Shown: piece by piece, positions 4,175-20,847 of the stretch
Numbering within the stretch: position 1 is the first letter of the stretch
Layout of the letters: each line of letters starts with the position of its first letter
Origin: Methylococcales bacterium
GTDB taxonomy: Bacteria > Pseudomonadota > Gammaproteobacteria > Methylococcales > Methylomonadaceae
DNA: 64,000 nucleotides
Direction: 5' to 3'
Assembly (NCBI GenBank): GCA_026399075.1
Contig: JAPLRR010000029.1
Location: forward strand, 1 to 64,000
The notes under the pieces: generated by a model
Told to the model about the DNA's origin: nothing
The model's database searches: none
Seen by the model: the letters and a program-made list of their open reading frames with translations, nothing else
Program-made: the position numbers and the translations under genes

Positions 4175-6283
4175 TTAAGGCATCCGGTTGACCATCAGGG
4201 CATCGGCTTCCAATTTTAAGGCCTTCGCTTTTTTTAATAGCGGGTTGCGCAAGGATGGAAATTGTACCAATGCGGCGGAATATTCCAGTTTATACGCGGC
4301 CTTTAATTTACTGGCAGCCTCAAGGAAAGGGATTAACTGGCCTTCGGTCAGCACTTCGATGGCATCTTCGGTGTCAGCCATTGCCAACTTAGTGACTTCC
4401 CTACCGTTGGCGGCATTTAAGGCCATGGCTTGGTCATCCAATTTATTGGAATTGCGGATATTTTCCAGGGCATTGATCGTCCGTAAAAACAAAGACACCG
4501 CCACCACTTGGGAAGAGCTGATTTTTACCGTGCGGTCTGCTTTTGATGAGGTTAGATGGCCGGGTGAGTTGTTAAATTCATCGGTATTGTAATAGGCCAC
4601 GGCTTCTTCAATCGTGCTGACGCTATTATTGTGGAAAAACGGCGCGGTGTCGGCAGCTTCCACCAAAGGTGGCGTATTAAAGCGCCCGTCACCATAATTG
4701 CAGCGGGTATCTGGGTCATTATCAGAACACCAGCCCAGCTTGTCTTCATCACCCATGCCGCCATCCATCGGCGTGTTAGGGTCTAACAACACCGCCGCTT
4801 GGTCGGCCATCAGCTCAACCCCGGTGTCCCTAGTGGGGTTACCACGGGTAGTGGAGCTTATTGCGCCGGCATTGCTGTGGCAGCCGTTACAATTGGCGGA
4901 TTTGCCCAAAATAGGCTTTTTGCTAACTGGGTCGACGGGGTTGTTTTTTTGGTCAAACAAGACTTTGCCACGTTGCACCAGTTCTGATTTAAAGGTCATT
5001 TTACTCAGAACCAAATCGTCACTGCGCCCTAAAGACAACATATAGGCTTGCAGGGCGTTTAATTCCGCATCCGTCGGCAAACGAAAATCCACGCCCGGGG
5101 TGCGCGCCAAGGATTTGGTAAAATGTTGAACAACTGCACCTATGGCAAATTCACGTAGCGAGCCTGTCCCCACCGAGCCGTCACCTGACCAGCCCAAGGC
5201 ATTGGCATACTCCAAATCCAAGTCAAATTCACCTTTGATCAAATTGCCCAAGTCATCACGAATCAAGCCTTCGGTTTGGATGCTTTTGGCCAAGGCCAGT
5301 GTATGCGGCACACTACGCATCACGCCCGGTTTATTAAATCCATCGACGTTTGCCAAAATCAACCCCAGTTCGCGCATCAGTTTGGGGTTTTCAAACCCGA
5401 CCTTGAGGGCTGGGTTAGTTTCCGCAATAAACAATGGGTCTGATGGCGGCAAGGTCGCGATATATTTGGGGTCTATGGTGTGGTTGTTGTCTAGGCGGTG
5501 GCAGCTGGCACAGGTACGGCCATTGCCTTTGAAAGTTTCTTTCACAAAAATTCGGCGGCCTTCGGCAATTTCAGCACCCATGACAGCCGCTAAATTGGTC
5601 TGGTTGGCATCTTTGGCCTGCGCCAAACCAGGTAATAAAAATGCAAAAGGTGATGGTATCGTGATGGCCGGGCTTAGCTGGCCAAGCATCGCTTTTGCCC
5701 AAGGCTTATCCGCATAATACAGGTTTTGCAAAAAATCAGGGGCGCCCGCAATGACCAAGCTTTGGTCTGGGCTTTGCCCAGCGAGGCTTACTGCCACCAT
5801 ATCGATCTTAAAATTAGCCAAGGCGGCTTGGTCGATTTTTGTATTTAGTGACGCTAAGTCGGTTTGGGGATTCAAGCGGCCTAACCGGACAAAACGGTCG
5901 CCAATTTCTGGCTTGACGCTATGCTGGCCACCTTCGAGATTGTCTACCAACCAAACATCGTAAGTTTGATTATCCAGCCCTTTGACTTTAACCGACACGT
6001 CTCCGGTCATCAAATCCAAATCCATCGTGCCCCGCGCTTTGGTGGCGGTGTTGGACAAGATTTTTGAATGCGCCAAAGATAAATGCAAGGTGCTGGCGTT
6101 GCCGCCCCGCGCCTCATAGTTTTTTTGCCATTCGCCATACAGGTTTTTAAGTGCGTCCACGTCGCCATGGCCTAACACCATTTCTTGGTTGTTTTGTGGG
6201 TTATTACGGGTAAAGGCAATATTAGCAAGGCCGCCTATGAACACCATTAGTGTCATAGCCGCCAACAGTCGCTGTATTTTCAT
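4175..6283 (-). CDS. Di-haem cytochrome c peroxidase-like protein with large N-terminal extension
   Basis: The 702-residue product has an N-terminal signal or anchor segment (about 5-24) and two haem c motifs, C258-A-S-C261-H and C465-N-G-C468-H, in the arrangement of bacterial di-haem peroxidase/oxidoreductase proteins. It should act in the periplasm. The C-terminal part after about residue 240 covers the known family. Residues 35-220 form an extra region I do not recognise, with beta-rich sequence such as Y-D-V-W-L-V-D-N and R-F-V-R-L-G-R-L. A second hydrophobic stretch lies at about 208-222. Electron donor and substrate are unknown. It is convergent with lysR, with no partner gene nearby. 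Confidence 0.85.
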   Translation of the reverse strand: MKIQRLLAAMTLMVFIGGLANIAFTRNNPQNNQEMVLGHGDVDALKNLYGEWQKNYEARGGNASTLHLSLAHSKILSNTATKARGTMDLDLMTGDVSVKVKGLDNQTYDVWLVDNLEGGQHSVKPEIGDRFVRLGRLNPQTDLASLNTKIDQAALANFKIDMVAVSLAGQSPDQSLVIAGAPDFLQNLYYADKPWAKAMLGQLSPAITIPSPFAFLLPGLAQAKDANQTNLAAVMGAEIAEGRRIFVKETFKGNGRTCASCHRLDNNHTIDPKYIATLPPSDPLFIAETNPALKVGFENPKLMRELGLILANVDGFNKPGVMRSVPHTLALAKSIQTEGLIRDDLGNLIKGEFDLDLEYANALGWSGDGSVGTGSLREFAIGAVVQHFTKSLARTPGVDFRLPTDAELNALQAYMLSLGRSDDLVLSKMTFKSELVQRGKVLFDQKNNPVDPVSKKPILGKSANCNGCHSNAGAISSTTRGNPTRDTGVELMADQAAVLLDPNTPMDGGMGDEDKLGWCSDNDPDTRCNYGDGRFNTPPLVEAADTAPFFHNNSVSTIEEAVAYYNTDEFNNSPGHLTSSKADRTVKISSSQVVAVSLFLRTINALENIRNSNKLDDQAMALNAANGREVTKLAMADTEDAIEVLTEGQLIPFLEAASKLKAAYKLEYSAALVQFPSLRNPLLKKAKALKLEADALMVNRMP

Positions 6284-6453: not shown

Positions 6454-6478
6454 GTTAATTAAACCGTGTTATATAACG
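6454..6478 (+). repeat. Dispersed AT-rich repeat, copy 1
   Basis: A 25-base stretch (GTTAATTAAACCGTGTTAT and flanking bases) that recurs with about three changes at 14415-14440 and in both arms of the inverted repeat at 14506-14564. It lies in the otherwise empty 275-base gap between the cytochrome and metallopeptidase genes. Probably a relic of a small mobile or MITE-like element. Confidence 0.6.
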
Positions 6479-7310: not shown

Positions 7311-8861
7311 TCAACGCAGCAACAATCCAGCACCTAGCCAATCTACAATGAAGTGCCGATAATATTCGGCTTTGGCGGTTTGTAAATGTTCCAACGGATT
7401 CAGGTTGTCGGTCAGGATTACACCTAGGGTTTTATCGACAGTAAAAACCCGTTCTTGCAACCAGTCAATTTGATCTTGTACCAGTGTTTTTGGGGCGATA
7501 TCAAGCGCCTGTTGGGAGGCGATAAAGATAAAGTCATTAAAATCTTTGCCTGGCTCAGAAATAAACAGCCGTTGCTGGGGAAACACTTGCGCCAAGGTTT
7601 TTGACACCGATGCCAATGCGCGGTTGTTGCTGTTTGAAAACGCCACAAAATTAAGCGCCAGCAAGCCATCCTTGGACAATAAACCTTGCAGTTGGGTCAG
7701 TGTTTCCACGGTCAGCAAATGTGCTGGCTCCGCACCACCCGTAAAGCAATCATGGATAATCAGGTCATAAGGGCCTTGTAAATGGCGGATCTCATAACGG
7801 GCATCGCCTACGATAGCCTTGCCAGTCGGGTTAAAGCCAAAGTAGCCGCTGGCAGCTGCCGCCACCGCCGGATCAATTTCCAAGGTGTCGGTGCTGATGC
7901 CATAGCGGTCATGCAGCAGTTTTGCCATGTGCCCGGCACCCAAGCCAATAATGAGGGCGCGGTTCATGTTAGGCCGCAGGGCAGGCATTAGGCCGACAAT
8001 ATCTTGATAGCTAAGCCGGCTTTCGCCATTGCTGATGCTGGCCGCACCAATGGCCGACGCATCCGAGGTAAGTAGGCGCAAATCGTGGGTAGGTTGGTCG
8101 ATTACCCGCACCCAGCCGTAAAGGCTTTCTTGTTCTGATTGCACTTGGAACGTTGGGTCGGCCTTATCGCTATGGCCTACACTAACAATTTTAGGCAATA
8201 AGGCCATCCCCACAATAGCCAATAGCAGGCATGGCAACACGGCAGTCACCACACCCAAGTATTTTTGTTCATAGACGGCCACGGCCACAGCCAACACCAA
8301 TAAAATGCAAGCCAGTCCGACGAGGATTTCGCGGGAACCCACTAGCGGAAACAGAAAAAAGCCTAAGATTAACGTGCCCGCTACACTCCCCAGTGTGCTG
8401 ACCGCATAGATTGAACCGGAACTGCTGCCGATGCCATCCAAGCGCGTGGTTGCCAGCTTAATCGCAAACGGCCCGACCATACCTAAAAATGCTAAACTTG
8501 GCGAGAACAATACCAAAGCACTGACAAAAGCCCCTAGCCGTAAGCCTAATGGGTCGGTTGCCAGCAAGACTGGCCGGGTCAGCCACGGGATCAATAAGGT
8601 TAGCAGGGCGGCAATGGCAATAATCAGCGCCAGCCCTGTCCTTTTTGCCACGTCCGCCCAACGGCCACCGACAAAATAACCGATTGCGAGCGCAATCATG
8701 GTCACGGAAATTAGTGATGACCACACATAAAGGCTAGCGCCATAAAAGGGAGCGATCAGGCGTGTGCCTAGCAGCTCTATCACCATCACTGATGCCCCAG
8801 TCAGGAACACCGTCATATATAGCCCAACACGCCCGTAGCGGTGTAGTGGTTTGTCGTTCAT
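7311..8861 (-). CDS. Membrane-bound spermidine synthase-like protein
   Basis: The 516-residue product has an N-terminal half with about six to seven hydrophobic segments (residues about 10-225) and a C-terminal Rossmann domain typical of polyamine aminopropyltransferases: A-L-I-I-G-L-G-A-G-H-M, T-L-E-I-D-P and G-D-A-R-Y-E, followed by Y-D-L-I-I-H-D. Such fused proteins are annotated as MFS/spermidine synthase, but aminopropyl transfer has rarely been shown. It lies 51 bases downstream of the DUF3570 gene copy 1 on the same strand and may be co-transcribed, though a functional link is unproven. Confidence 0.85.
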   Translation of the reverse strand: MNDKPLHRYGRVGLYMTVFLTGASVMVIELLGTRLIAPFYGASLYVWSSLISVTMIALAIGYFVGGRWADVAKRTGLALIIAIAALLTLLIPWLTRPVLLATDPLGLRLGAFVSALVLFSPSLAFLGMVGPFAIKLATTRLDGIGSSSGSIYAVSTLGSVAGTLILGFFLFPLVGSREILVGLACILLVLAVAVAVYEQKYLGVVTAVLPCLLLAIVGMALLPKIVSVGHSDKADPTFQVQSEQESLYGWVRVIDQPTHDLRLLTSDASAIGAASISNGESRLSYQDIVGLMPALRPNMNRALIIGLGAGHMAKLLHDRYGISTDTLEIDPAVAAAASGYFGFNPTGKAIVGDARYEIRHLQGPYDLIIHDCFTGGAEPAHLLTVETLTQLQGLLSKDGLLALNFVAFSNSNNRALASVSKTLAQVFPQQRLFISEPGKDFNDFIFIASQQALDIAPKTLVQDQIDWLQERVFTVDKTLGVILTDNLNPLEHLQTAKAEYYRHFIVDWLGAGLLLR

Positions 8862-8912: not shown

Positions 8913-11651
8913 TTAAAACGCATAATCCCAGTTGACACTTAAGGCACCTTGGCGTTCCAGTTGGTAGCCGTTTACATCGTCGCTCACGGGCTGTAACCAC
9001 TCAAAGCTTAAGCTATTGCCTTGGAGGTCGCCGCTAAGCACAACCGCATTAAGGCCAAAACCGACATCCCAATAACGGCCACCATAGTTATATGGCAAAT
9101 CCATGGGCCCGGACACCACATAAGGCTCATAGGCATCCCGATATTCAACGGTTTCAATGACTTCACCCGGGGCGATGACACCATCGCCATCGGCATCACC
9201 CGGTACAGTGACCGTAAATTCTTTATCACGCACCAAATGCTGGTTAAATTGGCCTTTGATAGCCCCCTGCCACGTATAAACACCACGCACCGAAGCAGAC
9301 AGCCAATCGAAAATATTATAACTACCCCACGCGGTAGATTGGAACAAATCGCCCAGCGCATAACCCGATGCGTTCCTGTTGTCCAAACGCTTGGTGCCGC
9401 TAAGCTGCGCACCCCATGACCACTTGTCCATCTGACCGGTATAGGTGATGCTGGGCTTAAAATCCCACGTGCCGCTACCTAGCTGCATCCCGTAATGGAT
9501 GTAGTCGCCTTCTTCATGATGGGTGTCCCGAAGCTTGATGTCAACATCGCCGGTAGGCGCACTAATGCCTAATGCAGAGTGCAGATGGTGGTTTTTGCCA
9601 TCAAATAATTTAAACAGCGCATAAATGCCAGTGTCACCAATCCCCCCGGTATCATGATAGCCATTGCCACCGCCATGATTGTGGCCGCCTGAGGATGGCG
9701 GCGCCCCGTCCAGCGGCCTTAAGTTCATGTTCATGTCCATAAACTGGGGCATCAACATCAGGTTCAACCAATCCGTGGGTGCGTACATTAGGTCAACCAT
9801 GATCATGTTCATATTCATTTCGCTAGGCACAACACTGCAAGTAGTGTTGCCACAGCCATTGGTCACAATGGTCTGGTCGTTCACCGAGGTTGTACCGTGT
9901 AAACGGTTGCCGCCTTCGGAACCATACATATAGCGCGCGCCCAACATGACATCGCCGGGCTTGGACAGCATGTGGCCAAACATCACCCCAGATGGTACAG
10001 GGCTATGATGATGGCTGTGCCCGCTGTGTCCGGCATGGCCGCCACTGGCGGTTGCGACGGCGGATAAATCGACTTTGACTGCACCACTGACTGTGTAATA
10101 GTTAAAATCGGCGTAATTGCCCTCACCATTGCCGCCCAACTTCAAGGAACCGGCATGGGTGTAATATTCGGCCGACGCCACAAAGCTGATGCCCTTGGCA
10201 AATTGCTTGCTTATGGTCAGCCCGCCACTTAAAGCACCATACCCAGACAAGCGGTAGTCGCTGGAAAAACTGCTGGGCAACAAATTAGGGTCATACTGTG
10301 TGTTGCCGATGATTGCTCCGGTATTGGGATCTATCACCACGCCTTGGTAAGCTTGCTGGGAAATCAGATAAGGCTTGTAGAAATTAGCCGCACTTTGCGA
10401 GTAATAGCGGAAACTGGGGGTGATAGTCCAGCCTTGGCCCAGCGGCTGTACCCAGTCACCCTCAAAGGTATGGGCGTTAATGCCCCAATCATCATGATAA
10501 AAGCGGTAATCCAAATGCAACGCAGCATCGAGGGGGGCAATATGCTGTACATAACGCAAGTTTGTCGTCACTTGGTTGCGCTCTTCGGGCCGTTGCTCCA
10601 TAAAGGCTTTAACTTGGCCATAATATCCGCCGCTAGGTGCCAGAAATTGCAGGCCGGGATCGATGAAAGCAATTTCCATCACTTTATACGGATTAGCCAA
10701 ATAGCCTGTGCTACGGGTATAACCCACGCCCGTTTCCAGCACCGCAGACTTGTTTAGCACTTGGGTCAGGCCAAAATGCGTCCCCCAATCTTGCCGTCTG
10801 GCATTGAGGATGTTGACGCCGGGGGCGGGATGTTCGATTTGGTTTTGATACGCGTTGGTGTTGATGTAACCAACCGTGTCGTGGTCTTGTTTGGCAGTCG
10901 TGGTACTATCCGTGTAACTCAAGCCTAAACTGGCCGTGGTTTGTTTCTGGTTAAAATCCATGCGCCCATCTAGGCTGCCCCAATGGGTGTTGTAGTCATT
11001 TTCCACAGACAGCCCGCCACCTGCATCCAATGCCGCCTCATCCCATTCATAGCCCAATTTGAAGTCGCCTTGTTTACGGGTTTCTGGTGAGGCTGAAGAC
11101 AGCGTATGTACTAATTGCGTTTGTTGTTTATAGACCGGATCGCCGGTGTTGGGGTCATAGCCGTCAACCACCATGGGATTTAATTGGGAATCAAAGAACA
11201 ACTCGCCATTAATATAAGGCGTTGCCCCCGACACAGTGGGTTCGTTGGCCCCGGTGTAGCCACCATTGCCGCCAAAAGCCAGCGGGGCGGTGGTGATGGG
11301 AGTTGCCCCTGACCACGTATCTTGTACGTAATTAAAGCCAAACTTAACCCTGTCGCTGAGCTTGAAACTGGTGCTGCCTTCCAGCGAGTCAACTTCTATG
11401 GGTTTAAATTTGCTTTGCTCGCCAAACAAATTACGGCTGCTTTCTTGGTAATGCCCATATTGCAAGCCGACCTCCTGATCAGCTGCCAAGCTGGCCATGG
11501 GCAACAAGCCCGGCAAGGCCAATGCCGCAGCTGTCAGTGCGGTTAAAGTGGCCTTGGATGAGGGTTGGGCATCGTTGTGGGGGTGTTCAGTAACAACCAC
11601 AACCGCCCCCGCTGGCTGAGCTACCGCCTGATGCGGACTCCCGGCTACCAT
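8913..11651 (-). CDS. DUF3570 outer-membrane protein fused to a second beta-barrel-like domain, copy 1
   Basis: The 912-residue product has an export signal ending near A-S-L-A-A (about 53-57), a DUF3570 half (about 58-535), a His-rich hinge (539-549), and a C-terminal half (550-912) like the Phenol_MetA_deg-type transporter family. The C-terminal half has a Met-rich block at 612-643. Alternating beta-strand pattern and the final aromatic residue (W-D-Y-A-F) fit an outer-membrane barrel. Residues 111-117 read D-T-W-S-G-A-T, a match to the ApbE flavinylation consensus. A second SGAT lies at 141-144. The ATG at 11651 is deep inside the DUF4266 gene and has no ribosome site; a GTG at 11600 is an alternative. 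It is about 60 percent alike by eye to the copy at 15500-18268. Confidence 0.85.
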   Translation of the reverse strand: MVAGSPHQAVAQPAGAVVVVTEHPHNDAQPSSKATLTALTAAALALPGLLPMASLAADQEVGLQYGHYQESSRNLFGEQSKFKPIEVDSLEGSTSFKLSDRVKFGFNYVQDTWSGATPITTAPLAFGGNGGYTGANEPTVSGATPYINGELFFDSQLNPMVVDGYDPNTGDPVYKQQTQLVHTLSSASPETRKQGDFKLGYEWDEAALDAGGGLSVENDYNTHWGSLDGRMDFNQKQTTASLGLSYTDSTTTAKQDHDTVGYINTNAYQNQIEHPAPGVNILNARRQDWGTHFGLTQVLNKSAVLETGVGYTRSTGYLANPYKVMEIAFIDPGLQFLAPSGGYYGQVKAFMEQRPEERNQVTTNLRYVQHIAPLDAALHLDYRFYHDDWGINAHTFEGDWVQPLGQGWTITPSFRYYSQSAANFYKPYLISQQAYQGVVIDPNTGAIIGNTQYDPNLLPSSFSSDYRLSGYGALSGGLTISKQFAKGISFVASAEYYTHAGSLKLGGNGEGNYADFNYYTVSGAVKVDLSAVATASGGHAGHSGHSHHHSPVPSGVMFGHMLSKPGDVMLGARYMYGSEGGNRLHGTTSVNDQTIVTNGCGNTTCSVVPSEMNMNMIMVDLMYAPTDWLNLMLMPQFMDMNMNLRPLDGAPPSSGGHNHGGGNGYHDTGGIGDTGIYALFKLFDGKNHHLHSALGISAPTGDVDIKLRDTHHEEGDYIHYGMQLGSGTWDFKPSITYTGQMDKWSWGAQLSGTKRLDNRNASGYALGDLFQSTAWGSYNIFDWLSASVRGVYTWQGAIKGQFNQHLVRDKEFTVTVPGDADGDGVIAPGEVIETVEYRDAYEPYVVSGPMDLPYNYGGRYWDVGFGLNAVVLSGDLQGNSLSFEWLQPVSDDVNGYQLERQGALSVNWDYAF
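11301..11321 (-). other. Predicted FMN attachment motif (Dxx(S/T)GAT) in DUF3570 copy 1
   Basis: Codons 111-117 encode D-T-W-S-G-A-T. ApbE enzymes link FMN to the threonine of Dxx(S/T)GAT motifs, as known for NqrB/NqrC and RnfG. Here T117 would be the acceptor. The same heptapeptide is kept at 17972-17992 in the paralogue, and an apbE gene lies in the same cluster. Inference, not shown experimentally. Confidence 0.65.
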
Positions 11652-11802
11652 AATTATGCGAGCGCAACGCGCTTTCCATGGGGTAAGGTGTCATGGCCAT
11701 TTGTGGTTTGGCCAAGATGCCGCGTTCCCAAGGCTGTATTTGGGCGCAGCTAGACAGGCTGATACTTACGGCGATTAACAGGGCGAGTTTGCTTGGTTTC
11801 AT
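11587..11802 (-). CDS. DUF4266 lipoprotein with Cys-x-Cys tail, copy 1
   Basis: The 71-residue product has a lipoprotein signal with lipobox L-S-S-C19, then the family core Q-P-W-E-R-G-I-L-A-K-P-x-M-A and H-N-Y-G-S-R-E. It ends in a Gly/Ser-rich stretch with G-G-G-C-G-C-Y. The two near-terminal cysteines are conserved in the second copy. Its role is unknown; the tail could bind a metal or form a disulfide. The 3' end overlaps the 5' end of the DUF3570 frame, so the two are translationally linked. Confidence 0.85.
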   Translation of the reverse strand: MKPSKLALLIAVSISLSSCAQIQPWERGILAKPQMAMTPYPMESALRSHNYGSRESASGGSSASGGGCGCY

Positions 11803-11889: not shown

Positions 11890-12321
11890 TCAGTTGTCTT
11901 GGGTCAAATCGACACTGGTGGCCGTCAAAGCAACATTTTTAGAATTTTTGCAGGCTATATCGACCGTATAAAGCTCTGCCCCAGCGGCGGTTTTGTCAAC
12001 AAAGACATAATAAATCCCGACCCCGCTAGCGGCTTTTACTAAAGGGCTATAAACCTTATCTTCTTTAGGGTCGGTGGCATTGGTGGCTTTTACGCCTTTG
12101 ATGGCTTGCACCTTTACCAAAGGTGTTGCCACAGGCGCTAGATCTATCACTTTAGTGTCTAAAGCCGTGGTTGTTGCCGGACAAACGACAGTCCAAATAT
12201 CAATTGCCCCCGCAGGAACTCCCAATGCCCCTGAATAAGGGAGCGCTGCTGCGGAACTGACTTGCCCTAGCGCAGCCAAGGCCAATACGATGGCTAGTCT
12301 TTTGTTAAGCATGTTTTTCAT
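11890..12321 (-). CDS. Small secreted protein of a local paralogue family, member A
   Basis: I chose the start at 12321 (Met-Lys-Asn-Met-Leu), which gives a classic signal peptide ending in S-S-A-A-A. The mature part is about 115 residues and begins L-P-Y-S-G-A-L-G-V-P-A-G-A-I-D. It shares with the proteins at 12391 and 19396 the pattern G-x-x-A-G-A-x-D near the start, V-x-C after it, D-x-x-Y-S-P-L in the middle, and a second Cys in the last quarter, suggesting one disulfide in a beta-sandwich. Unlike the other two, its mature N terminus is not His. No family name known to me. Confidence 0.75.
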   Translation of the reverse strand: MKNMLNKRLAIVLALAALGQVSSAAALPYSGALGVPAGAIDIWTVVCPATTTALDTKVIDLAPVATPLVKVQAIKGVKATNATDPKEDKVYSPLVKAASGVGIYYVFVDKTAAGAELYTVDIACKNSKNVALTATSVDLTQDN

Positions 12322-12390
12322 AAATTTCCCCGTTACGCGGTGTCTGGCGTTACTGCCCATCCAAAGGTGTGGCTAGCTGTTTTGGCAGGC

Positions 12391-12840
12391 TTATTGGTTT
12401 TGATAAGGGTAAATGGTCGTACCGGTATGGCTGCCCGTTTTGCTTTCGCAATGATAAACAATACCGTACTTCTCAGCGCCTGCCGCACTTTTATTGATGA
12501 TCACCAAATAACCGCCGTTACCGCCATTAAACTTTAATTCAGGGCTATACACTTTGTCGCCATCAATGGGATCGGTGGCATTTAATGCTACCCCGCCTTT
12601 AAAAATTTGGACGCTTAATAATGGGGCCGCCTTGGGCAAATAGTCTATCACTTCCAAATACAAATGTTCGGAGGTGCTGCCATCTTCACCGTCTTCACAG
12701 GTGACCAAATACATATCAGTTGCGCCAACTGCTGAACCCAATGCGCCGGATTGGTCATGGGCCATGGCAGAACCTATGGAGCCCGTCAAAGCCAGACAAG
12801 ATAAAGCTTTAAGCCATTTTTTAAGTGATAGGTTTGTCAT
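12391..12840 (-). CDS. Small secreted protein of a local paralogue family, member B (mature N-terminal His)
   Basis: The start at 12840 (Met-Thr-Asn-Leu) has a GGGGGACT ribosome site; upstream frame to 12912 is rejected. The signal peptide ends in S-A-M-A, leaving a mature protein starting His-Asp-Gln-Ser-Gly-Ala-Leu-Gly. Then come V-G-A-T-D-M-Y-L-V-T-C and, late in the chain, V-Y-H-C, so two conserved cysteines. Related to the neighbours at 11890 and 19396. An N-terminal His together with the downstream His is compatible with copper binding, but no function is known. Confidence 0.78.
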   Translation of the reverse strand: MTNLSLKKWLKALSCLALTGSIGSAMAHDQSGALGSAVGATDMYLVTCEDGEDGSTSEHLYLEVIDYLPKAAPLLSVQIFKGGVALNATDPIDGDKVYSPELKFNGGNGGYLVIINKSAAGAEKYGIVYHCESKTGSHTGTTIYPYQNQ

Positions 12841-12943
12841 AAAGTCCCCCGTAAACGCTGGTAAGCGGTGGTAATAGTGGTGGCTGGCGTAATTGCAGGC
12901 TGCCAAACGCACCTAGTATAAGTGATTTTTTGCTATCCTGGAA

Positions 12944-13043: not shown

Positions 13044-13934
13044 CTAATTGTAAAAAGGCGTACCTGGCACACCGAGAGGGAATTTGCCTGTAGGCATAGG
13101 CAAATAGGTGTCAATATCGTTGCTAGATGGCTCAATTGACAAATCATAGCTGTTGTCAGCGGTGCAGTTAGCTGGTAACGCGCTAGTGCGTGTTAAGGTC
13201 ATGGTTGGCCAGAATGGCGCTTCGATAGCGGGATCATAAGGGGTAGCCCTAGGCATGGTCTTTTGGTCAGCAAACTTAGTTGTAGTATGGCCTATCCAAA
13301 CATCAACACGGTCAGGTGCTTTCTTGGAAGCAGTCCCCCGTTTACACCAGTTAGCCACAGCGATACGGATTTTCAGGCTTTTTGCACAAGACGTGGCTTT
13401 AAACTTGATAGCGCCATATCTGAAAGGCGATAAACCTGTCATGCTAACGGGGCTTTCTTGCAATTCAGCGCCTTTAATAGGCGTTGGCCCGCTCCAAGTA
13501 TGATAACCACGGATGGCCTTAGCTGGGTTGATGGCAGGGATAAAATTAGGGAACAACGTGCCGCCGCCAGCAACTAGGCCTGCACCCATATTGCTAAAAC
13601 CAACGCCTGGCAACACACCTTCAATGTCATTGGAAAGGTCAGGCAAAGGTGCGCCAACTTGCAGACCAGCTGCATTTAGCTTATAGATAACCGCATCCAA
13701 AGGATCGGCTGAGTTAGGGAACACCACACTTTGGGCTATCACATTGGAGGCAACCGCTGCTTCATTGGAATTATCGGTGCAACCATGGCCTATAGTAAAC
13801 GCGTTATAACCAGCAACCCCTTCTACGGGTTTGTCTTTTACGCCAGTATGTGCCATTGCCACTTGGCTAGCGCCGCAAATAACCGTGATAAGTGAATACG
13901 CGGCTAATTTGCCGAATGTAGTGGATTTTTTCAT
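13044..13934 (-). CDS. Secreted protein with mature N-terminal His, possibly YcnI/DUF1775-like at its start
   Basis: The start at 13934 (Met-Lys-Lys-Ser) has an AGGAG ribosome site. The signal peptide ends in V-A-M-A, leaving a mature protein of about 270 residues that begins His-Thr-Gly-Val-Lys-Asp-Lys. The next stretch, G-Y-N-A-F-T-I-G-H-G-C-T-D, resembles the opening of YcnI/DUF1775 copper proteins (N-terminal His, then a strand with H-G-C). The rest is longer than YcnI and I do not recognise it; it contains further Cys pairs and W-C-K-R-G. Its neighbours are the secreted paralogues and the flavinylation cassette. Confidence 0.75.
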   Translation of the reverse strand: MKKSTTFGKLAAYSLITVICGASQVAMAHTGVKDKPVEGVAGYNAFTIGHGCTDNSNEAAVASNVIAQSVVFPNSADPLDAVIYKLNAAGLQVGAPLPDLSNDIEGVLPGVGFSNMGAGLVAGGGTLFPNFIPAINPAKAIRGYHTWSGPTPIKGAELQESPVSMTGLSPFRYGAIKFKATSCAKSLKIRIAVANWCKRGTASKKAPDRVDVWIGHTTTKFADQKTMPRATPYDPAIEAPFWPTMTLTRTSALPANCTADNSYDLSIEPSSNDIDTYLPMPTGKFPLGVPGTPFYN

Positions 13935-14414
13935 GCTGCTCTCCTTTGAACAATTCATGTAAGTATTATTATTTTTGTCTTGATTAGGCGCTCCTAAAGC
14001 TTGATACAAAATAGCGGCAAGTTGCACCGCGTTAGGTTTCAGCTGTTAAAACGCCTGCTGGGCATCAGGATCATCCTACCGCCCTTCTTTCTAAATGAAG
14101 CTCATTCCTGTTTGCATAAAGCACGATACATGCCATAAATTCTCCTACCAAAAATAGCAGGTTAGGCAAGCTGACATTTGCCCTATTTCCGCGCTCATTT
14201 CCGGCTTATAGTGGTTTATTTTATAGTGTGCTGTGCTGTAAGCCCTGTCAATGTTGGAATCTGCTGTTGCGGCTTGATTTTTCGGGCATAAAAGCAATTT
14301 AGGGTGCGTAGCGACGCTAGGGGTGATAAGCATGATAATGCTGGCCCTACTAATCAATGGAATGGATTATTGCCCCGTCTATAATGCCGAAAATAGGGAA
14401 ATTGGGGGCGTCAA

Positions 14415-14594: not shown

Positions 14595-15500
14595 CTATTT
14601 TGCCCCACCCACCTTACCTTGCACATCTACCCAAAGATGCGGCAGCCCTAGGTCTTGTAGCCAAGCGATGCCCTCAGTTTCTTTTAGCATGGCGATAGTT
14701 GCCGCGCTGCCCGCTACGACACAAAAATCCGCTATAACACTCACAGCCGCCAAATGATGCACAGGCCAACCCGTTTTAGGATTTAAAATATGTCCGTAAC
14801 GGATGCCATTGATGGTAATGCAGCGCTCATAATCGCCGCTGCTGGCCAACGCGCCTTCAGACATCAATAAGGTATCCAACAAACCGTCTTTATTAGCAGG
14901 GTCGCGTATGCCGATGTGCCAAGGGCTACCGTCAGCGCGGGGGCCGATGACCTTGATGTCCCCACCCAGATTAATTACCCCGTGCCGGATGCCTACAGAC
15001 TGGCACAGGGCGGCGGCCCTATCCACTGCGTATTCTTTGACCACGCCGCCAAAATCCAGCTCCATACCCGGCACGGTAAAGTGCAGCTTGGGCTTAAGCC
15101 AGCGCACTTTATGCCAACCCACTTTGTTGAGCAATCCATCCAATACGGCCTGTTCGGGTAACTGGCCCAGTTCAAATTTCCAGGCGCGGCGCAAAATACC
15201 TGAGCTAATATCAAACAGGCCGTCGCTTTGTTGGTGACAGGTTTGGGCATAATCCAGCAAGCCCGCAGTTTCGTCATCCACGTCAATGCTGCCGCCCACG
15301 GCAGCGGCTTGGTTAATGGCAGATAAAAAGCTGTCATTTTTATAGCGCGAATAACGCGCCTCCAAGCGTTGCACATCGGTAATGGCTTGCTGGATGGCTA
15401 ACTGGGCGGCAGTTTGGCTGTTGGCAAACAGCTGTATTTCACAGCGCGTACCCATGGCGGTAAATTCCTTGCGGTAATAGCTTAGGGCATTGACCGCCAT
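14595..15500 (-). CDS. apbE: FAD:protein FMN transferase (ApbE family)
   Basis: ApbE enzymes move FMN from FAD onto a threonine of target proteins. Family blocks are all visible: F-T-A-M-G-T near the start, E-L-D-F-G-G-V-V-K-E-Y-A-V-D, N-L-G-G-D-I-K, and S-S-G-D-Y-E-R followed by G-H-I-L-N-P-K-T-G-W-P-V. The block usually written A-D-x-x-x-T, which holds a magnesium-binding Asp, reads A-G-S-A-A-T here, so that Asp is replaced by Gly. No signal peptide is seen, whereas many ApbE proteins are exported. I set the start at 15500, where TAATG joins it to the DUF3570 stop; an upstream ATG at 15518 also exists. Last gene of the cassette. Confidence 0.92.
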   Translation of the reverse strand: MAVNALSYYRKEFTAMGTRCEIQLFANSQTAAQLAIQQAITDVQRLEARYSRYKNDSFLSAINQAAAVGGSIDVDDETAGLLDYAQTCHQQSDGLFDISSGILRRAWKFELGQLPEQAVLDGLLNKVGWHKVRWLKPKLHFTVPGMELDFGGVVKEYAVDRAAALCQSVGIRHGVINLGGDIKVIGPRADGSPWHIGIRDPANKDGLLDTLLMSEGALASSGDYERCITINGIRYGHILNPKTGWPVHHLAAVSVIADFCVVAGSAATIAMLKETEGIAWLQDLGLPHLWVDVQGKVGGAK

Positions 15501-18268
15501 TAAAATGCCAAACCCCAAGTGGCTGTCAATGCGCCATTGCGCTCAAGTTGATAACCATTAACGTAATCTTCAACAGGCTGTAACCATTCCACACTCAAGC
15601 GGTTGCCCGCCAAATCGCCAGATGGCACCATGGCACTCAAGCCAAAACCGATATCCCAATAACGTCCACCGTAATTGAACGCGTAATCCATGGGCCCAAA
15701 TTGCTCTATCAACCCGTCAAATTGGCCTTTGACTGTCCCTTGTAAGGTGTAGACACCCCGCAAGGAAGCCGTCAGCCAGCTGGTCAAATTATAGCTGCCC
15801 CACGCGGTGGCTTGGAACACATCGCCCAAGGCGTAACCGGAAGGGTTTTGGTCTTGCATACGCACTGTGCCGTTGGCTTGCGCGCCCCAAGAAAATTGCG
15901 CCGCTTGCCCGGTATAAGTCAGGCTAGGCTTAAAATCCCAGGTGCCGCTACCTAGCTGCATCCCGTAATGGATATAGCCGCCATCCACTTGGTGGTTGCG
16001 CCGCAACTCAATGTTGACATCGCCCGTCGGTGCGCTAAATCCAGTCGCCAAATAGATATGGTGGGTATCATTGGCAAACAGCTTGACCAAGGCATACATG
16101 CCCAAATCACCAATGCCGCCAGTCTCATGACCGTTTTGCAAATGGTGGGGGATATGGTTGGCGATAGGCGTAGGCAGGCCATCAGCGCCTAGCGGGTTGC
16201 CGACGTTATTATTGGCCAGTTCGTCATAGTCAGCGCTGCGCAATCTATCCATGGTCATGCTCATCGTCATAAATTGCGGCATTAACATTAGTGTCAGCCA
16301 ATCGGTGGGTGCATACATCAAATCCAACATGTGCATATTCATGCTCATGGTATTCGGCGCAAGAAAACAGGGGTTGGGCCCACAGCCGCCTTCCACTATC
16401 GCCTGATTACCGACAGTCTGGCTGCCATGCAACAGATCGCCCCCTTGGCTGCCATACATAAACCGATAGCCGACCATCATATCGCCCGCCTTGGGCAGGA
16501 TATGGTCAAACATCACCCCAGCCGGGGCATGGGCACCGTGATGGTGGTGGCCATGATGGCTATGCCCGCTGGCGCTAGGCGCGGATAATGCCGCCAAATC
16601 AACAGATAAGGTGGCCGTGGCTGACCAAGCATCAAAATTATTAAAATTATCCGCGCTATTGCCGCCTAGCTGCAAGGAACCTTGGTGGCTGTAATATTCA
16701 AAGCCCAAGTCCAACGCAACGCCATGGGCAAATTGTTTGCCCAAGGTTACTCCACCGCTGATCGCGCCATATCCCGCCAAGCGGTAATCGCTGGAATAAT
16801 GGGCAGGTAGTTTGCTGCGGTCAAATGGCACGGTTTTATTGCTGAGGGAAAGGTCGCCATTATCCACGGCATCAGTCACATTATTGCCTTGGGCATCAAC
16901 ATAGCCACCGGTATTGGGGTCGATAAAATATTCTTTGCCATTGCCCGGGTTGTTGTCGTCAACATAGATTTCCCGCCCGCTCGCATCTACGGCATTGCTG
17001 AATTGTGCTTGCGACGTGACTAGGTAGGGGCTGTAAAAATTAGCAGCACTTTGGGAGTAATAGCGCACCCTAGGGGTTAGTGTCCAGCCTTGGCCTAAAG
17101 GCTGCGCCCAGTCGGCCTCAAAGGTGTGTGAGGTGATGCCCCAGTCGTCGCTAAAAATCCGGTAGCCCAGATGCACAGACGCATCCACGGCATTGATATA
17201 CTGCACATAACGGAAGTTGCCTGTGCCTTGGTTACGGGTGTCCGGGCGTTGTTCCAGCAGCGCTTGGATATTGGCACAAAGCAAGCCCAAATCCGACTGG
17301 GGGCACTGGTCTTGGCTTAACGGGTCAACAAATGCAACAGTAACGGCCTTGTAAGGGTTTTCCATATAACCCGTGCTACGGGTATAGCCTGCACTGGCCT
17401 CCAATAACGCGTCCTTGTTAAGAATTTGGGTTATGCCAAACGAAGTAGACCAGTCTTGGCGGGTACCGGTGGCTATATTCGGGTTGCCGATGGTGTCGTC
17501 ATCGCTGATGATTATTGAATCGTAGGCTTCATCACGGATAATGTAAGCGCTAGTGTCATGGTCATTGACGGCATAGGTGTTGCTGTGGGTATAGCTTAAA
17601 CCCACCGCCAAGGTGGTCAATTTTTGGTTGAAATCCCAGCGGCCATTGATATTGCCAAAACCGGATACATAATCGTCTTCTACAGAAACGCCGCCACCCA
17701 CGTCCAAAGCGCTGTTATCCCATTCATAACCCAGCTTGAAATCGCCTTGTTGGCGGGTTTCTGGTGATGCCATCGACAAGGTGTCCACTAGCTGGGTGTT
17801 GGTTTTGTAAGTTTCGTTGCCATTGGCATCGATGATGCCCTCAACCGGATTTAGGTTCTGGTCAAACAAGGCATTGGTATGGACCAGCAACGGCGTTGCG
17901 CCTGATAACACTTGGTTTGAACCAGTAAAGCCCCCATTACTGCCGAATGCCAAAGGCATACTGGCAACGGGCGTGGCCCCGCTCCACGTATCTTGTTCAT
18001 AATTAAAGCCAAACTTAAGCCGATCCGTCAGCTTAAATTGGGTGCTGCCCAACAAACTATCCACTTCAATGGGGTTAAAATTGCTGCTCGCGCCATACAG
18101 GTCGCGGTGACCTTCTTGATAATGCCCATAAGTAAAGCTGGTTTCTTCCTCTGCCGCATACGCTGCGGGCAATAACAGGCCGGGCAGGCAAATGGCGGCG
18201 GCAGTTAATGCCTGTAATGGCGACAGTGAAGGCTTGTCAGCTGTTGCTTGGGATAGGATTTGACACAT
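15500..18268 (-). CDS. DUF3570 outer-membrane protein fused to a second beta-barrel-like domain, copy 2
   Basis: The 922-residue product has a signal peptide ending P-A-A-Y-A-A (about 39), a DUF3570 half (about 40-565), a His-rich hinge (568-580, nine His) and a C-terminal transporter/Phenol_MetA_deg-like half (581-922) with a Met-rich block (641-673). Residues 93-99 are D-T-W-S-G-A-T, the expected FMN acceptor motif with T99, and a second SGAT lies at 122-125. The chain ends W-G-L-A-F, as outer-membrane barrels do. Its gene touches apbE by a TAATG overlap and follows a DUF4266 gene after 206 bases. Standard DUF3570 proteins are much shorter, so the double-domain form is notable. Molecular role unknown. 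Confidence 0.88.
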   Translation of the reverse strand: MCQILSQATADKPSLSPLQALTAAAICLPGLLLPAAYAAEEETSFTYGHYQEGHRDLYGASSNFNPIEVDSLLGSTQFKLTDRLKFGFNYEQDTWSGATPVASMPLAFGSNGGFTGSNQVLSGATPLLVHTNALFDQNLNPVEGIIDANGNETYKTNTQLVDTLSMASPETRQQGDFKLGYEWDNSALDVGGGVSVEDDYVSGFGNINGRWDFNQKLTTLAVGLSYTHSNTYAVNDHDTSAYIIRDEAYDSIIISDDDTIGNPNIATGTRQDWSTSFGITQILNKDALLEASAGYTRSTGYMENPYKAVTVAFVDPLSQDQCPQSDLGLLCANIQALLEQRPDTRNQGTGNFRYVQYINAVDASVHLGYRIFSDDWGITSHTFEADWAQPLGQGWTLTPRVRYYSQSAANFYSPYLVTSQAQFSNAVDASGREIYVDDNNPGNGKEYFIDPNTGGYVDAQGNNVTDAVDNGDLSLSNKTVPFDRSKLPAHYSSDYRLAGYGAISGGVTLGKQFAHGVALDLGFEYYSHQGSLQLGGNSADNFNNFDAWSATATLSVDLAALSAPSASGHSHHGHHHHGAHAPAGVMFDHILPKAGDMMVGYRFMYGSQGGDLLHGSQTVGNQAIVEGGCGPNPCFLAPNTMSMNMHMLDLMYAPTDWLTLMLMPQFMTMSMTMDRLRSADYDELANNNVGNPLGADGLPTPIANHIPHHLQNGHETGGIGDLGMYALVKLFANDTHHIYLATGFSAPTGDVNIELRRNHQVDGGYIHYGMQLGSGTWDFKPSLTYTGQAAQFSWGAQANGTVRMQDQNPSGYALGDVFQATAWGSYNLTSWLTASLRGVYTLQGTVKGQFDGLIEQFGPMDYAFNYGGRYWDIGFGLSAMVPSGDLAGNRLSVEWLQPVEDYVNGYQLERNGALTATWGLAF
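17972..17992 (-). other. Predicted FMN attachment motif (Dxx(S/T)GAT) in DUF3570 copy 2
   Basis: Codons 93-99 encode D-T-W-S-G-A-T, identical to the motif at 11301-11321 and in the same position after the signal peptide. T99 would carry FMN. The apbE gene starts at the stop codon of this same gene, which strengthens the prediction. Confidence 0.72.
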
Positions 18269-18428
18269 TGCGGTTTAACTTAAGCGGGATAATTAGGGCT
18301 GAAAAATGGTCGTTTTGCTAACTGGCTGACAGGGTGGCTTAAGTTTGTTTGTTGGGGCATGGCAGTAATTGGTTTGAGCTTTGGATTTAGGCGGTTAATG
18401 ACTGTTATTAGTTTATTAGGGCCCACGA

Positions 18429-18452
18429 CAACGTCTAAAGCCATTGCACTCC
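18429..18452 (+). repeat. Half copy of a dispersed inverted repeat
   Basis: This 24-base stretch (CAACGTCTAAAGCCATTGCA plus CTCC) equals the right arm of the full 74-base element at 42213-42286 with one change. It sits 22 bases after the DUF4266 stop, in the 206-base gap before the DUF3570 gene. The rest of the gap shows no gene. Confidence 0.65.
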
Positions 18453-18474
18453 ACTAACGTTAGCCAAAGCCTGC

Positions 18475-18696
18475 CTAATTGCAACCACACCCCCCGCCTT
18501 TGGCGGAACCGCTACCTGTGGAAGCTTCCCTGCTGCCGTAGTTATGCGCGCGGTACAGACTTTGTGCCGGATGCGGATCCAAAGCCATTTCGGGTTTGGC
18601 CAAAGTACCACGATCCCACGGCTGCACTGGGCTGCAAGCAGACAAGCACCCACCAAAAAGAATTGTTAAGGACAACAAAAACCGTTTTTTATCCAT
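18475..18696 (-). CDS. DUF4266 lipoprotein with Cys-x-Cys tail, copy 2
   Basis: The 73-residue product has lipobox L-S-A-C21, the family core Q-P-W-D-R-G-T-L-A-K-P-E-M-A and H-N-Y-G-S-R-E, then a Gly/Ser linker ending G-G-G-C-G-C-N. It closely matches the copy at 11587. The lipid anchor should tether it to a membrane facing the periplasm. The gene lies 18 bases downstream of the TlpA-like gene and upstream of DUF3570, so its cysteines are plausible substrates for that thioredoxin. Function unknown. Confidence 0.88.
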   Translation of the reverse strand: MDKKRFLLSLTILFGGCLSACSPVQPWDRGTLAKPEMALDPHPAQSLYRAHNYGSREASTGSGSAKGGGCGCN

Positions 18697-18714
18697 CGGT
18701 TGGCAATGCCATGG

Positions 18715-19254
18715 CTATTTCGCCGACAACAAACCCTGAATGGTGGATTGCAATTCGTCGGCGGCGCCTGGCCTAAAGCCTAGGTGGATATGGTGCACCA
18801 CGCCTTTATTGTCAATAATATAAGACGATGGCATAGCTTGTACGTCAAAATCCTTGGCGCATTGCTTGCTGGCATCTGCCGCTACCGGAAAGCTGGCGGG
18901 TATTTTTGCCAAAAACGTGTTGGCATCGTCGGCATTTTCATCCATATTGACCCCAACGATCTGTAACCCTTGCCCGCCCAACTGTTTGTGCAGTTCATTA
19001 AGAAACGGGAACGATTGGGCGCAAGGCCCACACCAAGAAGCCCAAAAGTCCACATAAACCACTTTGCCCTTGTATTGGCTTAATTTGCCGGCTTGGCCCG
19101 CGCCTAAGGCCGACAGTTCGCAGTCCGGGGCTTTATCACCAACAGCAACGGCCGAGGCGGCAGGTGCAGCCAGCAAGGCCAGGGCCGTCATCAATAATGC
19201 CAAACTTTGCTTAGCGTTCAATAATAAAGTGGGGTAGGCTGGATGGGTAATCAT
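18715..19254 (-). CDS. TlpA-like periplasmic thioredoxin
   Basis: The 179-residue product has a hydrophobic export signal (about 15-36) and a thioredoxin fold with active site W-C75-G-P-C78, preceded by V-V-Y-V-D-F-W-A-S and followed by the cis-Pro loop Q-A-M-P-S-S-Y-I-I-D. It resembles TlpA/ResA reductases. First gene of the TlpA-DUF4266-DUF3570-ApbE cassette, with short spacing to DUF4266. The likely task is keeping thiols of the DUF4266 tail or other exported partners reduced; this is inferred from the context. Confidence 0.93.
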   Translation of the reverse strand: MITHPAYPTLLLNAKQSLALLMTALALLAAPAASAVAVGDKAPDCELSALGAGQAGKLSQYKGKVVYVDFWASWCGPCAQSFPFLNELHKQLGGQGLQIVGVNMDENADDANTFLAKIPASFPVAADASKQCAKDFDVQAMPSSYIIDNKGVVHHIHLGFRPGAADELQSTIQGLLSAK

Positions 19255-19395: not shown

Positions 19396-19839
19396 TTATT
19401 GATTTTGTTTTTTAACAATTGACGTACCCGCATGGATATTCGATTTAGTCATGCAATGGTAGGATACGTCATATTGCCTACTGGCGGCGGTGGTTTTATC
19501 CACCATCACATCATAAGTCCCATTGCCGCCAGCTATTGCTAACAATGGGCTATAAATATCATCCCCACCATTGCTGTCCGTCGTATTGCCCGCCAACAAA
19601 CCTTTTTGCACTTGTAAACTCAACAGCGCCGTACCCGGGGTGTCGTCATTCACTTGTAACTCCAGACGGGAGGCATTGCCATGGCCATCGTTATAGCATT
19701 TAACTTGGAAATAATCGGTTGCACCAGCTGTAGGGCCTAAAACTTCGTTATTCCACGCATGGGCCGCCGCCGTACCCGCGTAAGTGCAATAAAATATTAA
19801 GGCGCAAGCCCAAGGCCAGTATTTTAGGTTGCTGTTCAT
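19396..19839 (-). CDS. Small secreted protein of a local paralogue family, member C (mature N-terminal His)
   Basis: The start at 19839 (Met-Asn-Ser-Asn-Leu) has GAGG upstream. The signal peptide probably ends T-A-A-A, leaving His-Ala-Trp-Asn-Asn at the mature N terminus, though a cut after A-H-A is also possible. It shares with members A and B the block G-P-T-A-G-A-T-D-Y-F-Q-V-K-C and, late, Y-D-V-S-Y-H-C-M, so two conserved cysteines. It lies just upstream of the flavinylation cassette on the same strand. Role unknown; an exported copper or substrate-binding protein is one possibility. Confidence 0.78.
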   Translation of the reverse strand: MNSNLKYWPWACALIFYCTYAGTAAAHAWNNEVLGPTAGATDYFQVKCYNDGHGNASRLELQVNDDTPGTALLSLQVQKGLLAGNTTDSNGGDDIYSPLLAIAGGNGTYDVMVDKTTAASRQYDVSYHCMTKSNIHAGTSIVKKQNQ

Positions 19840-19992
19840 CGTTATCCTCATTGCGCCTGTTTTGGCGATAATAGGTTTGGTAAAAATCACAATTATCTAT
19901 GCAAATCTTAGGCCAAATTAAAACGATGGACGACCATAAGTTTTGGCTGTCTCTGTTGATGTAGTGGAGTTTTAAGTTTGTGTAGTTAACGG

Positions 19993-20847
19993 TTATTTAT
20001 TGCGCTTTTTTTGTAAGGCATCCAATTTTGACAAGGCCAGTTGACGGATGGTTTCGTCGTCGTCATTAATGGCTTGTTGCAGCAAGGTGGCATCGTCGCC
20101 TATCCCATCCACGGCCATTAAGCGCACACCGGCATCGCTATCATGCAGGGCATTTTGAAGTGCGGCTACCGCTGCCGAACCCTCCCGATGGGCATAACTG
20201 GAAACCGCCTGCGCCCGCACCGTCGCATCCGGGTCAGACAATGCGGTTTCCAGGACATTTTTTACTTGCGCATCGCCTGGCCTGCCTGCGGACATTAAGG
20301 CACCGACGGCAGCGGCACGGACACTGGCATCATTGGATTTTGCCTGGGCAATTAAGTCATCGGTCTGGTCTGGTTCACTTTCATCCACCGAACTGGCGCT
20401 GGCTATAGCGGGCGGCTTATTGCTGGCTTGGGGACTGTTGCAATTGGTGGCTGAGTATTGGCTACCAATCACCCACATTTCGGCAGCCTTAGGCGGCGCG
20501 GCTTTCTTCCCCGGTTTGTGGTTGCGGACTATCAAATCGGCTTTATGCGCCAACAAACATTCGACAATTTTTTGCGGCGTGGATGCCACACAAGTTGCCG
20601 TCACCAAGCCTTCTGGCAAAGCCGAATAATGGATCGGCACACCTGTTTTTGCCGTGATGGTGTCTAGCACTTGGGCTAAGGGCGCTAAGCGCACTTCCAG
20701 CTGTAGCTCACTGCCAGGATCTGTGGCCTGCACCCAACCGATCAGGCTACCGTCGGTTTGCCCTGCCGCCTGCACATAAGGGCTGGCCGATAAACTGAGC
20801 GCTAAGATGAAAACCGCCGTGATGGCATTGACCTTAAGTTGTGCCAT
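19993..20847 (-). CDS. Exported STN-like plus HEAT-repeat protein
   Basis: The 284-residue product has a signal peptide (about 1-28, ending V-Q-A-A). Residues about 35-125 look like the short STN/secretin N-terminal fold: L-x-L-E-V-R-L-A-P-L-A-Q-V-L-D-T-I-T-A-K-T-G-V-P-I-H-Y followed by C-V-A-S-T-P-Q-K-I-V-E-C-L-L. Residues about 165-280 hold HEAT repeats with the A-D-x-S-V-R-A-A-A-V-type helix pairs. The gene starts 3 bases after the glnE stop, so it is co-transcribed with glnE, yet it is periplasmic. Probably a protein-protein interaction module; its partner is unknown. Confidence 0.78.
   Translation of the reverse strand: MAQLKVNAITAVFILALSLSASPYVQAAGQTDGSLIGWVQATDPGSELQLEVRLAPLAQVLDTITAKTGVPIHYSALPEGLVTATCVASTPQKIVECLLAHKADLIVRNHKPGKKAAPPKAAEMWVIGSQYSATNCNSPQASNKPPAIASASSVDESEPDQTDDLIAQAKSNDASVRAAAVGALMSAGRPGDAQVKNVLETALSDPDATVRAQAVSSYAHREGSAAVAALQNALHDSDAGVRLMAVDGIGDDATLLQQAINDDDETIRQLALSKLDALQKKRNK

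Follow-up and report, generated by a model that had tools for sequence, protein, structure and literature searches.

Our analysis concerned a stretch of 64,000 nucleotides from a Methylococcales bacterium (GenBank assembly GCA_026399075.1, contig JAPLRR010000029.1, positions 1 to 64,000; hereafter the window), in which an initial annotation had marked four co-directional genes at 14595-19254 for a TlpA-like thioredoxin, a DUF4266 protein, a DUF3570 protein and the flavin transferase ApbE. We found all four on the minus strand in that order (Table 1), with 18 bp between the TlpA and DUF4266 genes, 206 bp between the DUF4266 and DUF3570 genes, and a 19-bp overlap of the DUF3570 and ApbE genes if ApbE starts at the TTG codon at 15518 (there is no overlap with a later ATG start). 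The annotation had missed a second DUF4266-DUF3570 pair, which lies 2.8 kb downstream of apbE and has no adjoining apbE. Because this pair stands in the same window and its DUF3570 carries both of the predicted attachment sites for flavin mononucleotide (FMN), a single apbE may serve two DUF3570 substrates; the host genome holds two ApbE matches in all, the other being on a different contig. Among 30 named loci that we fetched with the DUF3570 double-barrel protein, the four genes occurred in the same order and on the same strand in 20, and these nearest named relatives carrying the protein were Methylococcales by name in 29 cases and a Nitrosomonas in one. The host genome also has a gene of the AMO/pMMO (ammonia/particulate methane monooxygenase) type; together with the names of these relatives, this makes a gammaproteobacterial methanotroph the most likely host.

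That DUF3570 is a substrate of ApbE, as the annotation had supposed, has been borne out experimentally for a Chlorobium luteolum homologue with two [S/T]GA[S/T] sites, and flavinylation clusters of ApbE, DUF3570, thioredoxin and DUF4266 were published in the same survey (Meheust et al., eLife 2021; PMC8238504). The annotation's idea is thus correct in outline and not new, and its question of whether surveys already list the system is answered. The survey reports two forms of DUF3570 cluster, one with DsbD and one without it (316 clusters); it describes DUF3570 as a domain of ~420 residues, leaves its function open, and has neither "barrel" nor "porin" in its main text (PMC8238504). Compared with the clusters as described there, the window has the same four genes, the same family (PF12094) and two [S/T]GA[S/T] sites, but its DUF3570 has ~380 extra residues that would form a methionine-lined second barrel, its DUF4266-DUF3570 pair is duplicated around one apbE, genes for YcnI-like and small secreted proteins are added, and its thioredoxin matches Redoxin/AhpC-TSA where the paper names PF13899. 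A literature search confined to papers open without subscription found, besides this survey, no flavinylated outer-membrane barrel and no ApbE-linked methanotroph copper system; flavinylation is already published for a relative, but we did not find the double-barrel and neighbour layout described.

Table 1. Features of the DUF3570-ApbE locus, by position in the window.
Feature	Position	Strand	Basis or remark
ApbE flavin transferase, no recognisable signal peptide	14595..15518	-	PF02424, 1.8e-74
DUF3570 double-barrel protein (predicted), 922 residues	15500..18268	-	PF12094, 2.5e-108, residues 19-545
Conserved leader core of DUF3570, residues 18-31 (LQALTAAAICLPGL)	18176..18217	-	Alignment of module copies
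Predicted FMN site 1, D93-T-W-S-G-A-T99	17972..17992	-	Computed from sequence
Predicted FMN site 2, S122-G-A-T125	17894..17905	-	
His-rich inter-barrel linker, residues 558-596	16481..16597	-	Strand-free, low pLDDT at 561-577 in model
Modelled second barrel, residues 597-922	15503..16480	-	VIA-align to COG4313 channel 4rl8
Methionine ladder, M641 to M671, two neighbouring strands (model)	16256..16348	-	
DUF4266 small predicted lipoprotein, CxC end (GGGCGCN)	18475..18696	-	PF14086, 8.7e-22
TlpA/ResA-like thioredoxin, WCGPC active site	18715..19254	-	Redoxin, 3.1e-28; AhpC-TSA, 2.6e-25
Second DUF4266 (GGGCGCY)	11587..11802	-	
Second DUF3570, predicted double barrel, 912 residues	8913..11651	-	PF12094, 1.1e-116
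Predicted FMN sites in second DUF3570	11301-11321 and 11220-11231	-	Both present
Secreted protein, YcnI-like modelled fold, putative mature N-terminal His60	13044..14027	-	Family in 16/17 module loci
Small secreted family member (AMA/HDQ)	12391..12912	-	Family in 16/17 loci
Small secreted family member, no His at likely cleavage site	11890..12360	-	
Small secreted family member (AAA/HAW)	19396..19890	-	
Secreted HEAT-repeat protein	19993..20847	-	HEAT_2, 1.8e-20; family in 9/17 loci
Membrane protein, spermidine-synthase-like	7311..8861	-	Family in 10/17 loci; Pfam marginal, E 0.1

The annotation had placed one flavin site just after the signal peptide of DUF3570. Neither detail held, as T99 lies about 60 residues past the likely cleavage site near residue 38 (judged by eye) and the protein has two sites, at T99 and T125, at both of which we predict flavinylation. 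All 35 full-length relatives share D93, W95, G97, A98, T99 and P100. A motif of the form D..[STGA]GA[ST] was found in 111 of 124 DUF3570s (residues 21-260), whereas shuffling a shorter, 160-residue stretch produced it in 28 of 6200 cases. Among long DUF3570s 57 of 72, and among short ones 24 of 52, had a second motif no more than 75 residues away from the first. For these counts 2 of 126 DUF3570 hits had been removed by length, loci L063-L091 were omitted as repeats of regions fetched later, and L033-L062 may share species with other genomes in the set, so that the rows are not all independent.

The expectation that the motif would be kept only where apbE is nearby failed: a motif was present within the first 400 residues of 64 of the 65 DUF3570s that have a same-strand apbE no more than 1.5 kb away and of 54 of the 59 that do not (Fisher p = 0.10, over 124 rows that are not independent). 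The strictly aligned first site gave the same picture, its form being absent in 10/65 with an adjacent apbE and 7/59 without (p = 0.61), and nine of those ten apbE-adjacent proteins carried another motif within their first 400 residues. All 26 genomes checked, mostly chosen for a DUF3570 without an adjacent apbE, had an apbE somewhere. In six related proteins Ser or Asn stands in place of the first-site Gly (SSAS/SNAS); apbE adjoins none of their genes and lies 5.8 kb off in two cases. They are possibly a flavin-free branch. The loci concerned (L110, L111, L115, L117, L119 and L122) retain DUF4266 and TlpA. We also noted two genomes (G051 and G076; loci L132-L142) with ten and nine DUF3570 matches, most without an adjacent apbE and several with GGAT for SGAT, and a set of eight DUF3570s of 1081-1274 residues (loci L161-L168) whose motifs resemble DRDTYSGATPAF and whose first strands are followed by a long insertion.

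The literature treats ApbE as a lipoprotein, in most cases a secreted one (PMC12052999). A test for a signal peptide, or for a lipobox with a hydrophobic core, was passed by 0 of 77 ApbEs in DUF3570 loci and by 18 of 21 control ApbEs. The test was a pattern rule of our own and not SignalP, and by eye the three controls that failed it seem to be lipoproteins or exported proteins. As controls we used the second ApbE of the window's genome and one long-frame, DUF3570-distant copy from each of 20 DUF3570-bearing genomes. Upstream of the domain motif, the maximal N-terminal extension open to the 77 linked ApbEs had a median of 13 residues; an extension of more than 25 residues was possible in 17 of them, none of which passes the test, and a bare lipobox pattern without a hydrophobic core occurred in three. 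In the window ApbE an in-frame stop lies 28 residues ahead of the AMG motif at the domain start. Since a tree separated linked from control ApbEs by one branch (support 100/99), the signal may have been lost in a single, ancient event; two of the 77 (L115 and L117), 5.8 kb from their DUF3570, are placed with the controls when the tree is rooted at its midpoint, and a few other linked ApbEs are on the opposite strand or more than 1.5 kb from DUF3570.

These sequences raise the possibility that FMN may be attached to DUF3570 in the cytosol. The C. luteolum proteins were made by a signal-peptide-removal strategy, and DUF3570, although mostly in the pellet, was flavinylated (PMC8238504), so that membrane folding is apparently not needed and modification may precede it. 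A cytosolic ApbE of Klebsiella pneumoniae likewise has no signal peptide; its substrate is a soluble cytosolic fumarate reductase, whereas the substrate here would be an exported outer-membrane protein (PMC12052999).

The leader of DUF3570 was itself conserved in a way that the leaders of its neighbours were not. In 29 complete modules the leader core averaged 90% conservation as against 71% for the mature part and 44% for residues 32-40, with the qualification that the core (residues 18-31) was picked after viewing the alignment and that residues 18-40 together average ~72%, equal to the mature part; this is still well above the leaders of TlpA (43%, mature part 68%) and DUF4266 (39%, mature part 73%). 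A leader pattern A-[LM]-x-L-P-[GS] was present in 69 of 72 long and 20 of 52 short DUF3570s, the window protein at 15500-18268 having a variant that was scored as a miss. Our suggestion is that the core may be constrained through recognition by cytosolic ApbE.

Against a cytosolic attachment it counts that the control ApbEs were hand-picked as long-frame copies, with short non-adjacent copies existing outside the test, and that the survey's methods are worded as if the C. luteolum apbE might include a signal peptide (PMC8238504), in which case the lack of a signal in ApbE may not extend to every DUF3570 system. Attachment might instead be periplasmic, with the adjacent ApbE reaching the periplasm by an unknown route or the genome's other ApbE, which is of the lipoprotein type, doing the work; the secreted nature of most described ApbEs would fit this. 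We regard it as somewhat doubtful, as many genera retain a signal-less ApbE next to DUF3570, on one supported branch apart from the controls, and the K. pneumoniae cytosolic enzyme works on a cytosolic substrate (PMC12052999). If an outer-membrane protein is indeed flavinylated in the cytosol, the export machinery can let through a bulky covalent cofactor, an idea that is directly testable.

The outer-membrane location that the annotation had proposed for DUF3570 was supported by a structure model and by an invariant C-terminal Phe (F922, 35/35). The model, built on an alignment of 35 sequences (the two window copies and 33 from named loci), had a pLDDT (predicted local distance difference test) of 76 and a pTM (predicted template modelling score) of 0.67. 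It contained a first barrel of 16 strands of at least 11 residues at 42-557, shorter strands being counted as loop, and porins and other outer-membrane barrels superposed on it over about residues 31-564 (OmpG, Z 17.9; CymA, Z 18.1). A PDB sequence search with either DUF3570 gave no meaningful match. All seven turns after even-numbered strands were of 2-4 residues, while the loops after odd-numbered strands were of 15, 54, 2, 30, 43, 4, 93 and 15 residues, six of the eight thus being 15-93 residues long. In porins, as the rule is usually applied, long loops are extracellular and short turns periplasmic. From these lengths we infer that T99, at the end of strand 3, and T125, in the 54-residue loop that follows it, would be extracellular. 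T99 has the same side-chain parity as K85, N89, E91 and D93, which suggests that in the model its side chain points towards the lumen; mean pLDDT at residues 91-100 was 78.

The remainder of the protein modelled as a second barrel, which resembled a COG4313 channel (PDB 4rl8) over residues 584-922 (Z 22.3, root-mean-square deviation (rmsd) 2.8, 253 aligned) and had no Pfam match at E up to 10. The COG4313 channel in question, Pput2725, shares the fold at 16% identity, and such channels are described as serving hydrophobic molecules (PMC4493636). NCBIfam had no name for DUF3570, the second barrel or the YcnI-like protein. Within the second barrel a ladder of methionines is strongly conserved, M645, M647, M651, M661, M663, M669 and M671 being invariant in 35 of 35 sequences and M641 and M643 present in 34. 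These methionines alternate along two adjacent strands and share the parity of D649 and Q665, so that in the model they probably line the lumen. Relatives of the second barrel occurred in 39 of 398 genomes (E up to 0.001, the window's own counted), including other Proteobacteria, mostly as a stand-alone protein. Of 16 stand-alone loci fetched 15 had a match, and 11 of these 15 kept three or four of the methionines 641, 643, 645 and 647, while four kept none; M669 was retained in only one of the 15.

The conserved unit exceeds the four genes of the annotation in the named loci carrying the protein. We counted neighbour families in 17 loci, the long-flank picks from the 30 named ones, from which copies without adjoining TlpA and apbE (such as L049, L056 and L057) are absent. 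Four families recurred there (frequencies in Table 1), and no further non-core family of at least 75 residues occurred in three or more of the 17. The full set of eight genes (YcnI-like, HEAT, small secreted, TlpA, DUF4266, DUF3570, ApbE and spermidine-synthase-like) was present in seven of the 30 named loci.

One of the two most widespread of these neighbours may be a copper protein. A model of the 13044-14027 product best matched YcnI (8um6, 7me6 and 7mek, Z 8.8-9.3, and 3esm, 9.3; the next row was 6.1), with a putative cupredoxin-like fold, rmsd 2.9-3.2 and 125-127 aligned residues, the model having a pLDDT of 66 and the cleavage site being placed by eye. The alignments begin at His60 of the model, opposite YcnI residue 27. 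In YcnI, His27 binds copper through the N-terminus (PMC8424229), and the putative mature N-terminal His and modelled fold of 13044-14027 would be alike; it differs in being longer, in having 7-8% identity to YcnI and in having no DUF1775 hit. His60, which follows the likely cleavage site, is invariant in 16 of 16 family members, as is W244, a candidate counterpart of the Trp in the YcnI monohistidine brace, to which a Glu also belongs. Of the small secreted proteins, 47 of 67 fit a pattern that puts a His behind a likely cleavage site. DUF1775 (PF07987), searched for in 61 genomes, had no hit in that of the window and a single hit elsewhere, so the candidate link to YcnI is through modelled fold and His. 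CorA/MopE surface Cu(I) proteins are likewise secreted and from methanotrophs (PMC3912023), and differ in that 13044-14027 has a YcnI-like modelled fold; a CorA/MopE label, first suggested by resemblance, was dropped when a profile of the 16 members gave no hit at E up to 10 among PDB sequences, a set in which the presence of CorA/MopE entries was unchecked. NCBIfam gave only one sub-threshold row (E 0.12) for two of the small secreted proteins.

Our best explanation, which we hold tentatively, is that the locus is a methanotroph form of the ApbE-flavinylated DUF3570 cassette that would work as a module for reducing and taking up a metal, most likely copper, at the outer membrane. In the cytosol, signal-less ApbE would attach FMN to the still unfolded precursor at Thr99 and Thr125; the exported precursor would fold into the 16-strand barrel with both FMN sites at its extracellular mouth; periplasmic TlpA and the CxC lipoprotein DUF4266, possibly fed by DsbD, would supply electrons; the flavin would reduce Cu(II) that secreted YcnI-like proteins, bearing an N-terminal His, present to it; and Cu(I) would pass through, or be held in, the Met-lined second barrel on its way to copper-dependent methane monooxygenase. 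Sidedness, cytosolic timing, the route of electrons, copper as the metal and the direction of transport are all steps that we infer. The most specific version, a surface flavin copper reductase-importer made by cytosolic flavinylation by the signal-less ApbE, with the leader core as a recognition or timing element, Sec and BAM export and a Met-barrel fusion, is decidedly doubtful as a whole. To our knowledge, how copper enters across the outer membrane in aerobic methanotrophs without a known copper-chelating peptide is not settled, and a flavin on the outward side of a barrel, if true, would mean haem-free redox chemistry at the Gram-negative cell surface.

Several results pull the other way. 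The T125 region (residues 111-130) has a pLDDT of only 43-49, and two of the eight odd-numbered loops are no longer than the periplasmic turns. The YcnI-like model, at pLDDT 66, is a weak one, and a Pfam search at E up to 10 matched none of the 16 members of that family. Within 1.5 kb of two of the 15 stand-alone second barrels lay a gene for a PCuAC copper chaperone, but it came from ten neighbours picked by eye and scanned with Pfam; DUF2946, which had been expected in several, was not found among those ten. Nine plasmid records had a stand-alone-barrel match, and of the four examined one, from Methylosinus sp. C49, adjoins feoB with a PepSY protein near, which points to iron, while the other three stand beside nitrate or cytochrome-biogenesis genes. 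We also know of no route by which electrons from a periplasmic thiol could reach an outer-face flavin.

The CxxC of TlpA was kept in 29 of 29 module copies, as was a CxC near the C-terminus of DUF4266 (113 of 115 hits overall), and a lipobox was recognised by pattern in 23 of the 29 DUF4266 copies. DsbD is not in the cluster; the genome's sole DsbD_TM match is at window 46921-47574, ~27 kb away, and distant DsbD is a possible electron source for the module. At window 45803-48537 a Redoxin-type thioredoxin gene adjoins a full DsbD. The invariant cysteines and the published link to DsbD (PMC8238504) would also suit a module that keeps envelope thiols or methionines reduced or senses redox, the flavin feeding electrons inward or acting on periplasmic partners and any metal being incidental, and DUF3570s of ~370-550 residues without the second barrel fit it as well. 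This is unlikely in our view, as it leaves the modelled outward sites, the methionine ladder and the YcnI-like neighbour unexplained.

The same machine might serve iron, a surface flavin reducing Fe(III) and the second barrel passing Fe(II). Besides feoB and PepSY, a TonB-receptor gene lies near the C49 plasmid protein, and the survey lists 25 DUF3570 clusters with the ferrous iron transporter VIT1 (PMC8238504). We find iron distinctly unlikely: no iron gene could be recognised among the four neighbour families that recur in at least three of the 17 loci, the modelled fold of one neighbour is YcnI-like, and methionine ladders and N-terminal His proteins suit copper better on general grounds. 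The C49 protein (locus L239, 6780-8996) is itself of note as a Met-lined barrel fused to a different barrel domain (OMP_b-brl), in surroundings with feoB, PepSY, TonB-receptor and sigma/FecR genes.

A surface electron outlet, in which the flavin passes respiratory electrons to outside acceptors as a counterpart of the MtrCAB porin-cytochrome conduits that bring a redox cofactor to the surface through a barrel, is very unlikely despite the outward-facing sites of the model, up to ten DUF3570 matches in one relative and MtrB (6r2q_B) among the Foldseek hits, since that hit had a TM-score of only 0.22-0.29 among many unrelated barrels, two flavins alone cannot span the membrane and no cytochrome is among the recurring neighbour families of the 17 loci. 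By analogy with MtrCAB, the difference here is that no haem protein recurs nearby and the flavin is predicted on the barrel itself.

Outside the module proper, an Rfam scan of the window gave no matches. A c-type cytochrome of 702 residues is encoded near the module (window 4175-6283) and has weak MbnH/MauG-like similarity, its MbnH-family match being far below the cut-off (NCBIfam 6.4e-6; 25 bits as against 363). Finally, a 21-bp repeat (at most 2 mismatches) has five copies in the genome, four of them in the window at 6457, 14416, 14509 and 14541 (reverse); the window copies flank the downstream DUF3570 block, and two of them form an inverted repeat just past apbE.

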